Positions 1,368 to 6,213 of a stretch of 7,380 nucleotides of DNA are shown one piece after another. The position numbers were made by a program, and so were the translations under genes. Each line of letters starts with the position of its first letter. Position 1 is the first letter of the stretch. Under the pieces are notes generated by a model that was not told where the DNA came from, searched no databases, and saw nothing but the letters and a program-made list of their open reading frames with translations. The DNA is from an uncultured Archangium sp. (GTDB lineage: Bacteria > Myxococcota > Myxococcia > Myxococcales > Myxococcaceae): positions 1 to 7,380 of the forward strand of contig CAMLFP010000285.1 of assembly GCA_946479335.1 (NCBI GenBank), read 5' to 3'.

Positions 1368-1840
1368 CACGACACCACCTTCGCAGCGCGGGGCTGCACG
1401 AAACGTCGGAGCGCGGCGAGGGCCGCGGTCAGCGTGAGCGAGAGCACGAGCACCAGCGGCAGCGCAGCGGTAGACCACACCACCGCGAGCCCCGAGCCGA
1501 ACGCGACCGCGCCTTCACGCAGCTTCACCACCAGCGACGCCAGTTGGAGACCGAAGCCTCCGGTGGCGCCGCCACTTGCCAGGAGCGCTGCAACCGCCAG
1601 CGAGAGCGTCACGCCGATGATGGCCACCGCCGACAGCACGTCGGCGCGCGACATGGCCTTGGGCTCGGTCGCGACGCGGGTCATCACCTGCGAAAGAAAA
1701 TCAGGGGGCGGCAGCGGGTCGGCCAGCCGCAGGAGGTCCTTCTCCAGCTGCCGGTGCTCCTCGAGCAGCCGCGCCCGGTCGGCGTCATCAGGCGCGATCT
1801 CCAGCAGCAGCGCTTTGAGCTCAGGGTCGAATTCGTTCAT
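1367..1840 (-). CDS. Putative membrane-bound anti-sigma factor (two transmembrane helices, no zinc motif)
   Basis: This 157-residue protein follows the ECF sigma gene with a 4-base ATGA overlap and is followed by the envelope-protein gene with a TGATG overlap, the classic arrangement of a sigma/anti-sigma pair. The N-terminal 65 residues are cytoplasmic-like and acidic/helical, ending in PLPPPDFLSQVMTRVA, which resembles the linker after the anti-sigma domain of zinc-finger (zf-HC2) anti-sigma factors. The HxxxCxxC zinc motif is absent; there is no cysteine in the protein. Hydrophobic helices lie at about 68-88 and 118-142, leaving a loop of about 30 residues that would be periplasmic if the N-terminus is inside. 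GGTGA just upstream is a partial Shine-Dalgarno. By position it should hold the sigma factor at the membrane until a signal arrives. The role rests mainly on gene order and topology; sequence similarity is weak. Confidence 0.72.
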   Translation of the reverse strand: MNEFDPELKALLLEIAPDDADRARLLEEHRQLEKDLLRLADPLPPPDFLSQVMTRVATEPKAMSRADVLSAVAIIGVTLSLAVAALLASGGATGGFGLQLASLVVKLREGAVAFGSGLAVVWSTAALPLVLVLSLTLTAALAALRRFVQPRAAKVVS

Positions 1841-2592
1841 GACTTCACCGTGTTTCTGGTCGCCTTCTCGGCGGCCGACGTCGCGCTGCGCTTGCCGTCG
1901 TCACGCTCGCCCGCGGAGGCAGCGGGCGAGTTCCCTTCGAGGGCTCCGGGGTTTCTGGTCGCCTTCTCGGCGGCCGACGTCGCGCTGCGCTTGCCGTCGT
2001 CACGCTCGCCCGCAGAGGCCGCGGGTGAGTTCCCTTCGAGGGCGCCGGTCATGCGGGTGCGCAGCTTCTCGCGGGCGCGGAACAGCCGCGCCATGATCGT
2101 GCCGGGGGCGACGTCCATCACCTCCGCGATCTCCTTCGTGGTGCGCTTGTGCACGTAATACAGCGCCAGCACCTCGCGATCGTCGACCGAGAGCGTGGCC
2201 ATCGCGTCTTCCAGCGACTTGCGCTCCTGGCGCGCGATGGCGCCTTCTTCCAACGTCGGCTCCGACGACGGCAGCGCGTGGGAGTGATCCTCCACGTCTT
2301 CGGTCTTCACCTTCGTGCGGCGGCGCAGCAGGTCGAGGCACTGGTTGCGCGCGATGGCCAGCACCCACAGGTCGAAGGGCCGCGCGTCGTCGTAGCGCTC
2401 GAGGTTCTGGTACGCGCGCAAGAACGTCTCCTGCGCGACCTCCGCGGCCTCAGCCTCGGTGCGCAGCAGGCGCAGGCACAACCCGTACACCTGGCGCTGC
2501 ATCGAGCGCACCAGCGCCGCGAAGGCGTTGTTGTCGCCCCTTCGCGCCCGGCGGACCTCTTCAACCCAGGGGTGTGCCGGTTCCGTCGCCAT
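1837..2592 (-). CDS. ECF-family RNA polymerase sigma factor with duplicated C-terminal tail
   Basis: The protein contains both conserved regions of group 4 (ECF) sigma factors. Region 2 spans about residues 11-92, with AEVAQETFLRAYQNLERY and FDLWVLAIARNQCLDLLRRR, which bind core polymerase and the -10 element. Region 4 spans about 127-180, with LSVDDREVLALYYVH and the helix-turn-helix TTKEIAEVMDVAPGTIMARL, which binds the -35 element. The normal ECF fold ends near residue 181. A further 65 residues are two near-identical 33-residue copies rich in Ala, Ser, Glu, Lys and Arg, followed by TVKS. I chose ATG at 2592 because it places region 2 at the usual distance. GTG at 2643 (17 residues more) is in frame, has GGAAGGG almost touching it, and cannot be excluded. 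No good Shine-Dalgarno precedes 2592; the leader there is pyrimidine-rich. The 100 or so bases between truD and this gene may hold its own promoter, but I could not identify one. A palindrome GAAGC-T-GCTTC lies at 2656-2666. Confidence 0.92.
   Translation of the reverse strand: MATEPAHPWVEEVRRARRGDNNAFAALVRSMQRQVYGLCLRLLRTEAEAAEVAQETFLRAYQNLERYDDARPFDLWVLAIARNQCLDLLRRRTKVKTEDVEDHSHALPSSEPTLEEGAIARQERKSLEDAMATLSVDDREVLALYYVHKRTTKEIAEVMDVAPGTIMARLFRAREKLRTRMTGALEGNSPAASAGERDDGKRSATSAAEKATRNPGALEGNSPAASAGERDDGKRSATSAAEKATRNTVKS
1852..2049 (-). repeat. 99-bp in-frame tandem duplication in the sigma-factor tail
   Basis: Bases 1852-1950 and 1951-2049 are direct tandem copies, 99 bp each, both starting gtttctggtcgccttctcgg on the plus strand. 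By eye they differ at five positions. Four are silent in the minus-strand reading (TCG/TCA, GCT/GCG, TCC/TCT, GGA/GGC). The fifth, at the outer edge, gives Pro versus Thr. The duplication keeps frame and adds 33 residues, including the peptide GALEGNSPAASAGERDDGKR. It is not flanked by recognisable mobile-element ends and looks like slippage or unequal recombination within the gene. Confidence 0.97.
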
Positions 2593-2695
2593 CAGGCCAA
2601 ACGAGAAGGACGAAAGTGGAGGAAGGACAGATGAGGCTTGCACGCCCTTCCGTACGAAGCTGCTTCACTCTGATTGCGTCGAAATTCGCCAGCGA

Positions 2696-4134: not shown

Positions 4135-4761
4135 CTAGCGAGACAGGTGTTTCTTGAGGCGCTCGCGCACCACCGCCTGCGGGTCGACGAAGCGCACCCC
4201 GAAGCCGTGCACGCCGTACTTGCGGCCGCTCCACACCACGCGCGCGGCCAGCGGGTGACCGCCCCAGCGCCCGAAGAGCGTCGCCAGCTTGAGCGTCACC
4301 TCGTCGCCCGGCGCCGCGTCGACCAGGTGCGTGGTGCCGATGAACGCGCCGGTGTTCGACACGTCGCGAATCACGCCGCGCACCTGCGCGTGGGCAAACT
4401 CCAGCAGGCACGGCACGTTCAACTGCTCCCGGGAGTCGAGCGCCGTACCGTCCTCCAGCGGGCGCCCGGCGCAGAGGGCCACCATCTCCGCTACCGGCTT
4501 CTTCGCTTCGCCCTGGAACACCACCGCCAGCCCCGGCTCCTGCCGCGTCAGCGCCGTGTCGAAGCGCGCGCGCACCGTGCCCTCGAAGGTGAAGACCGCC
4601 GGCGAATCGGCCAGCGAGATCTCAAGCCTCACCCGCTCGCCGACGGCGTGGGTGGGTTGCCCCGGCACGAACAACGACAGCACCGAGCCCTCGGCTCGGG
4701 TTGATGCCAGAAGTGCGCGGCGGTGCGGGTAACGGGTACGAAGAATCGATGCGCCACTCAT
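4135..4761 (-). CDS. Double PilZ-type protein, possible cyclic-di-GMP effector
   Basis: The 208-residue soluble protein looks like two PilZ-like beta-barrel units. The first (about 22-100, containing SLFVPGQPTHAVGERVRL and FTFEGTVRARFDT) resembles the PilZ-related family known as paralogs in Myxococcus (TIGR02266 type). The second (about 111-205) contains VRGVIRDVSNTGAFI, AAPGDEVTLKL and HGFGVRFVD. PilZ domains bind cyclic-di-GMP with an RxxxR motif followed by D/NxSxxG. Here RxxxR occurs only at the N-terminus (R10-R14, RYPHR). DxSxxG occurs only in the second unit (D133, S135, G138), where the position expected for the second arginine is asparagine (REQLN, 111-115). Binding is therefore uncertain. 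The ATG lies in the loop of an 8-bp inverted repeat and has no clear Shine-Dalgarno. The gene is divergent from the CLC transporter and 38 bases upstream of truD. Confidence 0.82.
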   Translation of the reverse strand: MSGASILRTRYPHRRALLASTRAEGSVLSLFVPGQPTHAVGERVRLEISLADSPAVFTFEGTVRARFDTALTRQEPGLAVVFQGEAKKPVAEMVALCAGRPLEDGTALDSREQLNVPCLLEFAHAQVRGVIRDVSNTGAFIGTTHLVDAAPGDEVTLKLATLFGRWGGHPLAARVVWSGRKYGVHGFGVRFVDPQAVVRERLKKHLSR

Positions 4762-4778
4762 GTAAAATGCGAGTGGCG
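4752..4778. repeat. Inverted repeat around the PilZ start codon
   Basis: CGCCACTC at 4752-4759 and GAGTGGCG at 4771-4778 are perfect 8-bp inverted copies separated by 11 bases. In the PilZ mRNA the start codon (4761-4759) is at the stem/loop border, so the hairpin could limit translation. As DNA it could be an operator. No T-run follows on either strand, so it is not an intrinsic terminator. Function is not known. Confidence 0.5.
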
Positions 4779-4807
4779 GTAAACCCCGAACGGCAGGCAG
4801 CCGGCAA

Positions 4808-4825
4808 GGTGTGCTTCATCACACC
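4808..4825. repeat. Small inverted repeat in the divergent intergenic region
   Basis: GGTGTG at 4808-4813 and CACACC at 4820-4825 are perfect 6-bp inverted copies around a 6-base spacer (CTTCAT). It lies upstream of the proposed promoter of the CLC gene and 47 bases upstream of the PilZ start. It could be an operator for either gene or chance in GC-rich DNA. No T-run accompanies it. Confidence 0.35.
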
Positions 4826-4838
4826 GGCGCGTACAAAA

Positions 4839-4867
4839 TTGACGCGCTCGCGACCGCGCCGCACAGT
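4839..4867 (+). promoter_or_regulatory. Candidate sigma70-type promoter for the fluoride riboswitch/CLC transcript
   Basis: TTGACG at 4839-4844 matches the -35 consensus TTGACA at five of six positions. With a 17-base spacer the -10 would be CACAGT at 4862-4867, only three of six matches to TATAAT. Transcription would then begin near 4874, just before the aptamer at 4881, which is the expected spacing for a riboswitch leader. The -35 and the position support it; the poor -10 weakens it. Confidence 0.4.
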
Positions 4868-4880
4868 TCGCGGCACATGA

Positions 4881-4940
4881 ATGGCGGTGGAGTCCGCCGT
4901 CGACGCGTCTGGTGCTGCCAGACAGCCAATGACTCCTGCG
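4881..4940 (+). promoter_or_regulatory. Fluoride riboswitch aptamer (crcB motif), variant
   Basis: The RNA can form the full crcB-motif architecture. The 5' pseudoknot strand GGCG (4883-4886) pairs with CGCC (4895-4898), extendable by A-U and U-G to 6 bp. A 2-base linker GU comes next, then P1 GGAGUC (4889-4894) with GACUCC (4931-4936), a perfect 6 bp. A 6-base joiner (4899-4904) follows. The last stem starts with GC (4905-4906) pairing GC (4925-4926), then GUCUGG/CCAGAC (4907-4912/4918-4923) with one bulged A. Four bases CAAU (4927-4930) lead into P1 and UGC follows it. Helix lengths and linkers match the Thermotoga petrophila fluoride riboswitch as I recall it. Differences from the usual sequence are GGUGG for GAUGG, CAAU for UGAU and UGC for UAC. 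It lies in the leader of a CLC transporter of the fluoride-exporting type, the classic regulon member. Fluoride binding is predicted to turn the gene on. Confidence 0.8.
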
Positions 4941-4962
4941 TGTCGTCCTTCTTCTTGAATGG

Positions 4963-4996
4963 GCGCCGTGGGTCGTTTCCTCCGGCGCACCGGAGG
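4963..4996 (+). promoter_or_regulatory. Riboswitch expression platform hiding the ribosome binding site
   Basis: CCUCCGG (4979-4985) pairs perfectly with CCGGAGG (4990-4996) around the tetraloop CGCA. This buries GGAGG at 4992-4996, the Shine-Dalgarno of the CLC gene (5 bases before GTG at 5002). A mutually exclusive helix, GCGCCG (4963-4968) with CGGCGC (4983-4988), six G-C pairs, would break this stem and expose the site. No U-run follows, so control is likely at translation initiation. The CUCC of aptamer P1 (4933-4936) could also pair with the GGAG if P1 is open. Pairings are seen in the sequence; the switching model is inferred. Confidence 0.65.
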
Positions 4997-5001
4997 TTGA
5001 T

Positions 5002-6213
5002 GTGAAGCAGATCAGTCTGCAGGTCGTGCTGGGCGCGCTGGTGGGCGTGGTGTGCGGGTGCGCGTCGGCGCTGTTCCTCACGCTGCTCGAGTGGGTGACG
5101 GCGACGCGCGTGGCCGACGAGCGCTGGGTGTGGGCGTTGCCGCTCGGGGGGCTCGCCATCGGGCTCGTGTACGCGCGATTCGGTGCGCGGGTGCGCGCGG
5201 GGAACAACCTCATCATCGACACCATCCACGACGGCGGGCCGGAGGTGCCGTTGCGCATGGCGCCGATGGTGTTGCTGGGCACGGTCAGCGCGCATCTCTT
5301 CGGCGCGAGCGTCGGCCGCGAGGGCACCGCGGTGCAGATGGGTGCCAGCCTCGCTGACTTCCTCTCCCACCGGCTCAAGCTGCCGGCGGCGCTGCGCGCG
5401 CAGCTCCTCTCGGCGGGCGTGGCGGGCGGCTTCGGCTCGGTGTTCGGCACCCCCATCGCCGGCGCGATCTTCGGGCTGGAGTTCGTGCGGAAGGGCCACG
5501 TGAAGTACGCCGCGTTGCTGCCGGCGCTCGTCGCCGCGGTCGTCGGTGATCTCACCACCCGCGCGCTCGGCGTGGGGCACACGCACTACCGGGCGCCGCC
5601 GCCGACGCCGCTGACCTGGGAGCTGGCGCTGAAGTGGCTCCCCTTCGCCGCGGCCATCGCGTTGACCACGGTGGGCTTCGTCGAGCTCACGCACCTCCTC
5701 AAGAAGCACGCCGAGAAATGGGCGCCGCACCTGCCGGTGCGGATGGCGCTCGGCGGCGTGGGGTTGATCGTGTTGTGGCGCGGGTTCGGCTCCGATTTTC
5801 TGGGGCTCGGCGTCCCGACCATCGTGCGCGCGTTCGAAGACCCGGGGCTGCCGGCGTACGTCTTCGCGCTCAAGCTGGTGTTCACCGCGGTGTCGATCGG
5901 CGTCGGCTTCCCCGGCGGAGAGGTCACGCCGCTGTTCTTCATCGGCGCGACGCTCGGGAGCGCACTCGCCCGCCCGCTGGGGATTCCCCTCGAGCTCGGC
6001 GCGGGCGTGGGGCTGGCAGCGGTGTTCGCTGCGGCGTCGAACACGCCGATCGCGCTGTCGGTGATGGCGGTGGAGCTGCTCGGCGCGAATGTGCTGCCCC
6101 ACGTGGCCATCGTCGCCGTCGTCGCGCACGTGTTGACCGGTGACCGCAGCATCTACACCTCGCAGCTGCGCGCGACGGCGGACGTCGCCGGAGGTGGACG
6201 GCAGTCGCACTGA
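5002..6213 (+). CDS. CLC-family fluoride/proton antiporter (CLC-F type)
   Basis: The protein (403 residues, about ten hydrophobic segments, no CBS domain) is an inner-membrane CLC transporter. The classic chloride motif GSGIP is replaced by GNNLI at 67-71. The gating-glutamate motif is GREGT (105-109, E107) instead of GREGP, and the later anion-site loop reads GFPGGEVTPLF (302-312). These changes define the fluoride-selective branch, in which the serine of GSGIP is replaced by Met or Asn and GREGT is typical; members export fluoride in exchange for protons. Other CLC marks are GTPIAGAIFGLEF (149-161) and SNTPIALSVMAVELLG near the C-terminus. The GTG start is set by GGAGG at 4992-4996 with a 5-base spacer; an overlapping ATG at 5000 meets a stop at once. 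The ribosome site lies in a hairpin downstream of a fluoride-riboswitch-like RNA, so the gene is probably induced by fluoride. The annotation chloride channel would be the likely automatic label and is probably wrong about the ion. Confidence 0.92.
   Translation: MKQISLQVVLGALVGVVCGCASALFLTLLEWVTATRVADERWVWALPLGGLAIGLVYARFGARVRAGNNLIIDTIHDGGPEVPLRMAPMVLLGTVSAHLFGASVGREGTAVQMGASLADFLSHRLKLPAALRAQLLSAGVAGGFGSVFGTPIAGAIFGLEFVRKGHVKYAALLPALVAAVVGDLTTRALGVGHTHYRAPPPTPLTWELALKWLPFAAAIALTTVGFVELTHLLKKHAEKWAPHLPVRMALGGVGLIVLWRGFGSDFLGLGVPTIVRAFEDPGLPAYVFALKLVFTAVSIGVGFPGGEVTPLFFIGATLGSALARPLGIPLELGAGVGLAAVFAAASNTPIALSVMAVELLGANVLPHVAIVAVVAHVLTGDRSIYTSQLRATADVAGGGRQSH

Follow-up and report, generated by a model that had tools for sequence, protein, structure and literature searches.

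Fluoride riboswitches of the crcB motif (Rfam RF01734) are built from a P1 hairpin, a six-pair pseudoknot and a P3 hairpin, carry the fixed letters U7, A40, U41 and U48, and lie in the leaders of fluoride exporters. CLC/EriC is placed among the fluoride-responsive genes in an excerpt of PMC7266159. Excerpts of PMC10687018 describe two long-range A-U contacts in the solved aptamers: a reversed Watson-Crick pair between positions 6 and 38 (given there as A10-U38, and as A5.U35 in part of PMC8004769) and the linchpin pair A40-U48, which is also described in part of PMC8752731. In the excerpts of PMC13273304, a covariation study of RF01734, covariation is assigned to P1, the pseudoknot and P3. The locus described here is a unit of this known kind, a riboswitch together with a fluoride exporter; what distinguishes it is a natural swap of the tertiary pair 6/38, with covariation in searches of three phyla. 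We read it, with a probability of about 0.9, as a crcB-class riboswitch of a G6-C38 sub-type, presumably binding fluoride, that controls a CLC-F exporter, probably at the level of translation.

The window, which is the whole stretch of 7,380 nucleotides that was analysed, contains an open reading frame on the + strand (5002–6213; 403 aa) with a GTG start, five bases 5’ of which sits a GGAGG. By sequence comparison, this gene encodes a CLC-F type fluoride/proton antiporter. Its product matched the Voltage_CLC profile (PF00654) with 213.8 bits, and the best solved relative was the CLC-type fluoride/proton antiporter 6d0j (188 bits, residues 9–400). The best ClcA chain among the solved structures reached 23.7 bits, and on this comparison a chloride CLC was rejected. 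No NCBIfam model was found at or over its cut-off for this product. The signatures named in a preliminary description of this DNA were all present: GNN at residues 67–69, GREGT at 105–109 and GGEVTP at 305–310. In an alignment of 20 sequences, the window included, G67, GREGT and GGEVTP were invariant and N68 and N69 nearly so; the invariant E107 of GREG is what we take to be the gating glutamate. The homology to 6d0j includes the same GREG and GGEVTP stretches, with differences at GNN (GMN in 6d0j) and GREGT (GREGV in 6d0j). A protein search, in which only the candidates sharing most words were scored, gave 7981 of 7998 scored candidates at E<=1e-20.

Upstream of the gene, the leader follows the fluoride aptamer layout on the + strand from 4882 to 4937, with positions numbered in what is presumably the T. 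petrophila scheme. P1 (UGGCG-GU-GGAGUC-CGCCG; 4882–4886 with 4895–4899) has five pairs, the outermost being U-G, and encloses positions 6 and 7 (4887–4888) and the pseudoknot 5’ strand GGAGUC (4889–4894), which can pair with 4931–4936. After the P1–P3 linker UCGAC (4900–4904) follows P3 (GC-GUCUGG-UGCUG-CCAGAC-A-GC; 4905–4926), in which A4924 is bulged in the minimum-energy folds. The stretch 4929–4937 holds A40 (4929), U41, the pseudoknot 3’ strand GACUCC (4931–4936) and U48 (4937), so that the letters of the linchpin pair are retained as A4929 and U4937. All five P1 pairs (one U-G) and all six pseudoknot pairs are possible. The pair next to the pocket differs: G6 (4887) stands where A6 of the reversed Watson-Crick pair is canonical, and its partner C38 (4927) where U38 is canonical. 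Of the layout claimed beforehand, the P1 and the pseudoknot stood, and the linkers described as correct stood only in part, UCGAC being unlike the AUAAC/AAAC-type linker of most of 17 relatives (L123, with UUCGAC, comes close). Folding of 4870–5010 was compared with 200 shuffled sequences, none of which folded as well (z -3.65); with the match to the relatives’ model given below, this ruled out a chance fold. The best fold of the window computed without a pseudoknot has a shifted eight-pair hairpin instead of P1, with G6 paired locally. G6 could have a second role in such a hairpin, which would leave C38 unexplained.

In a 501-base search, the Rfam Fluoride model matched the window at 4874–4945 with 23.6 bits (E=2.3e-4), and the three further matches listed reached only 11–12 bits. 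The gathering cut-off of RF01734 in Rfam is 34 bits. Since the score lay below this limit, an independent covariance model (R1) was made from the aptamers of the 17 relatives, with the window left out. R1 matched the window at 4880–4943 with 44.3 bits (E=5.2e-11), and its sole other match in the window scored 7.3 bits (E=0.48). Weaker R1 matches in L405, L408, L410 and L411, which are degenerate or unclear, were left out of the counts. The relatives bear G-C at 6/38 and 16 of the 17 pass the Rfam cut-off, the exception being L130 (26.1 bits), which places the G-C form as such inside the family. On these matches we assign the leader to the fluoride riboswitch aptamers. It had been anticipated that a covariance search could miss so deviant an aptamer, and it does so: no Rfam family reaches its own gathering cut-off anywhere in the window, so a standard scan passes the aptamer by. 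Curated cut-offs thus lose some true family members, the window being one. Compared with RF01734, the window shares P1, pseudoknot, P3, the four fixed letters and the position in a fluoride exporter leader, and differs in G6-C38 for A6-U38, the linker, the bulge in P3 and the score. RNA shape (RF01734, R1) and protein motifs (the CLC-F comparisons) agree on the same ion, as had been proposed.

The leaders of related CLC-F genes were then compared. Among the 13 closest genome loci (L001–L013), five carried an aptamer over the Rfam cut-off on the strand of the CLC gene, namely L001 (Polyangium fumosum), L004 (titled Planctomycetota), L005, L006 and L013. The core sequences GGCGGUGGAGUCCGCC and CAAUGACUCCU of the window are common to these five. 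L004 may represent a transfer or a mis-binned contig. The eight other loci had no aptamer by the Rfam cut-off or by R1; on L002, L003, L007–L012 and L014, the best R1 match was 12.1 bits (E=0.16). The Rfam model was run on 20 loci, consisting of L001–L014 and six chosen for their scan matches, and 11 of these passed the cut-off. Among the 14 that were not chosen, six passed (the five above and L014). With five of 13 loci having the aptamer and eight lacking it, the riboswitch is a frequent but not a constant companion of these exporters.

Between aptamer and start codon, folding and comparison point to a switch strand, GGCGCCGUGGGUCGUU (4962–4977, + strand), with two alternative partners: 4928–4940 in a putative OFF state, or, through GCGCCG (4963–4968), CGGCGC (4983–4988) in a putative ON state. 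A predicted hairpin on the same strand (CCUCCGG-CGCA-CCGGAGG; 4979–4996) covers the Shine-Dalgarno sequence GGAGG (4992–4996). When fluoride is scarce, the pseudoknot 3’ strand (4928–4940) would pair with 4962–4977, by which the aptamer would be broken up, and the hairpin at 4979–4996 would hide the ribosome-binding site. Mg2+ and fluoride would stabilise the aptamer, so that the pseudoknot retains its 3’ strand; the downstream GCGCCG, now free, would bind CGGCGC within the 4979–4996 hairpin, which would expose the ribosome-binding site and allow the exporter to be made.

The relatives agree with this arrangement in several respects. The switch strand has an invariant CGU-GG in 13 aligned leaders, the window included. 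By our own reading of the minimum-energy folds, the pseudoknot 3’ strand is paired with the switch strand in 13 of 16 leaders (the window, L001, L004, L005, L006, L013, L116, L117, L119, L121, L124, L125 and L127); in L120 this pairing is partial, and L118 and L130 are without it. In at least eight leaders (the window, L001, L004, L117, L119, L121, L125 and L130), again by our own reading, the likely ribosome-binding site lies in a further hairpin. Pairing of aptamer letters 39–52 with downstream sequence was stronger than in at least 95% of shuffles in 11 of 18 leaders. The ON duplex, formed by the freed strand with later sequence, reached this 95% level in only 6 of the 18 leaders, and L001, L117 and L124 have a compensated change in it (GCACCG/CGGUGC for GCGCCG/CGGCGC). 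For the window alone, the OFF duplex gave p=0.10 and the ON duplex p=0.35 against shuffles, its switch strand being less regular. In equilibrium folding alone, the window leader showed no ON state with a free ribosome-binding site, and its seven-pair hiding hairpin persisted in the best fold after removal of the aptamer strand; the ON state would therefore need timing during transcription, or fails. The output is probably translational, as suggested by the relatives and more weakly by the window itself.

Transcription termination is an alternative to translational control. Excerpts of PMC11077080 and PMC13273304 describe a transcriptional output for the fluoride riboswitches treated there, and the switch hairpin, like a terminator, shares sequence with the pseudoknot strand. 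The + strand from 4750 to 5010 contains no terminator-like site, on which ground a terminator-type platform was ruled out, and the last hairpin covers the ribosome-binding site; a translational fluoride riboswitch has moreover been reported (excerpt of PMC11077080). Termination is thus unlikely here, and the translational model was kept because of the relatives and the absence of a terminator. In high-GC bacteria, a leader of this translational kind could be used to put gene expression under the control of fluoride.

To place the letters at 6/38 in a broader sample, RF01734 matches at E<=0.001 were surveyed in genomes of six phyla and in smaller sets, including a Dyella genome. Matches were found in 24 of 377 genomes for Myxococcota, 34 of 199 for Planctomycetota, 33 of 200 for Pseudomonadota, 53 of 149 for Acidobacteriota, 51 of 119 for Bacillota and 41 of 121 for Chloroflexota, the phylum of each search group being derived from the named locus at the centre of the search. 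Up to 30 matches per search and 100 of the further, weaker ones were taken. The counts were restricted to places found by Rfam, because a loose hand scan gave many chance matches (81 sequences yielded 55 on their minus strands). In the Rfam structure line, neither position 6 nor position 38 is paired, so RF01734 does not select for their agreement. Of 304 distinct rows, 55 below the scan-score limit were left out (19 were insignificant places by Rfam, and the remainder read mostly A-U, several out of register) and 249 were kept. From these, four without U7 (L126 with G-C; L327, L332 and L334 with A-U) and six judged by eye were dropped, leaving 239. The by-eye drops were L099, L106 and L110, at places scored E 0.03–0.6 by Rfam, and L260, L286 and L363, real Rfam matches misplaced by the scan, in which A6 and U38 can be read by eye.

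The 239 distinct aptamers had A-U in 206 cases, G-C in 27, U-A in three and A-C in three, with no G-U. Only the three A-C cases are non-complementary, so that 236 of 239 aptamers are complementary at 6/38, whereas 2000 free shuffles gave 184 on average and never more than 196; retaining the six by-eye drops as scanned would give 238 of 245. An earlier, overlapping count had given A-U 44, G-C 18, A-C 1 and four rows of other types. When all column pairs at a distance of two or more were ranked by corrected mutual information, 6–38 came fourth, below one P1 pair and two pseudoknot pairs; without the correction, one further pseudoknot pair also stood above it. The G-C cases comprised 13 from the Myxococcota search, three titled Polyangium, Myxococcaceae and Polyangiaceae, one titled Deltaproteobacteria, the window, six from the Acidobacteriota search and three Planctomycetota, one of the latter being L004. 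The U-A form was seen in L330, L337 and L341 (longer stretches L412, L413 and L415), all from the Acidobacteriota search. In the literature searched, no report of a G-C form at 6/38 was found; the alternation may already be visible in Ren et al. 2012 or in the Rfam alignment.

Instead of base pairing, such a pattern could reflect the common descent of a few lineages. A single phylum supplies most G-C forms (16 of 27 by Myxococcota search or title, besides the one titled Deltaproteobacteria and the window), and the covariation statistics were calculated without a tree. Shuffling within search groups, which roughly correspond to phyla (the window and one smaller locus set were placed with Myxococcota), still reached at most 217 complementary cases in 2000 shuffles, against the 236 observed. 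A-U, G-C and U-A moreover occur side by side within the Acidobacteriota search, and 6 and 38 pair in the solved structures (PMC10687018). Ancestry as the sole source of the covariation is accordingly improbable, and we regard 6/38 as a base pair. By analogy, G6-C38 may be taken as a compensated, geometry-preserving swap of A6-U38, with the trans geometry presumably kept.

In seven aptamers (L251, L327, L332, L334, L339, L347 and L126), position 7, which adjoins the fluoride pocket, is A and not U; five of the seven came from the Acidobacteriota search.

The genes downstream of the variant aptamers were examined as well. CrcB, Na+/H+ exchanger and enolase genes belong to the usual fluoride-responsive genes. 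A CLC gene followed in 12 of the 17 tested G-C loci, the window not counted. Five of these 12 had come from the search with the CLC protein itself; among the 12 loci located by RNA search alone, a CLC-F relative followed in 7, which is the fairer figure. L118 (G-C) was followed by CrcB (profile match) and L119 (G-C) by a CrcB-like start read by eye. In Pfam profile searches of sequence pieces, L421 (G-C) preceded CrcB, L414 and L422 (G-C) preceded Na+/H+ exchangers and L415 (U-A) preceded enolase. L416 and L417 (G-C) preceded dynamin-like GTPases.

A decayed riboswitch, in which the shape is left and fluoride binding was lost with A6, U38 and the linker change, would agree with a score under the Rfam cut-off, with a linker that differs from that of most relatives and with the lack of an aptamer at most (8/13) of the closest CLC loci. 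The changes to G6 and C38 compensate each other, however, and recur in searches of three phyla, partly upstream of fluoride genes, and the six pseudoknot pairs, U7, A40, U41 and U48 are all retained. Decay is on this evidence highly improbable. That the G6-C38 class senses another ligand, such as another ion, is barely credible: both changed letters adjoin the fluoride pocket and other riboswitch classes do have variants that bind new ligands, but G-C forms precede CrcB (L118, L421) and CLC-F genes and one U-A form precedes enolase.

The tRNA Levitt pair alternates between A-U and G-C. Like it, the aptamer pair is a long-range trans (reversed Watson-Crick) pair; name and geometry of the Levitt pair are given in an excerpt of PMC3902895. 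The aptamer pair differs in adjoining the Mg2+/fluoride site, and its geometry in the G-C form is presumably the same. Isolated G:C reversed Watson-Crick pairs are described in the same excerpt as rather unstable without extra support. On balance we lean towards the view that the aptamer has at least three interchangeable natural versions (A-U, G-C and U-A), with the backbone geometry of the pair, and not its letters, shaping the pocket, and that the G-C version, common in Myxococcota and there coupled to a probable translational three-way switch, may have another affinity for fluoride or another requirement for Mg2+. The natural swap allows the construction of the fluoride pocket to be probed cleanly: A-U, G-C and U-A should be exchangeable, and aptamers with a mismatch, G-U for example, should bind less well.

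Some further observations were made in the surveyed genomes. Aptamers were located directly upstream of dynamin-like GTPase genes at L112:1598–3064, L114:2–1483 (minus strand), L126 (minus strand), L416, L417 and L113:1555–3057, in the Myxococcota and Acidobacteriota searches; Dynamin_N was identified by Pfam in five of these and in L113 by eye only. No paper treating a fluoride riboswitch together with dynamin was found in the literature searched. Two G-C aptamers lie approximately 1.4 kb apart on contig C115 of genome G024 (L409:1501–1566 and L409:70–126, both on the minus strand), with R1 scores of 45.7 and 55.8 bits, respectively. Dyella mobilis (genome G593, L050) has nine fluoride riboswitch matches over the cut-off within approximately 58 kb of contig C35 (39326–97077) and a tenth match on another contig, and a single contig of genome G1174 carries eight, of which four pass the cut-off. 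In the window itself, a 98-base repeat is present at 1852–2048 in two copies that are 96% alike and spaced 99 bases. It lies inside the 3’ end of an ECF sigma factor gene (1837–2643, minus strand), by which 33 tail residues are duplicated.
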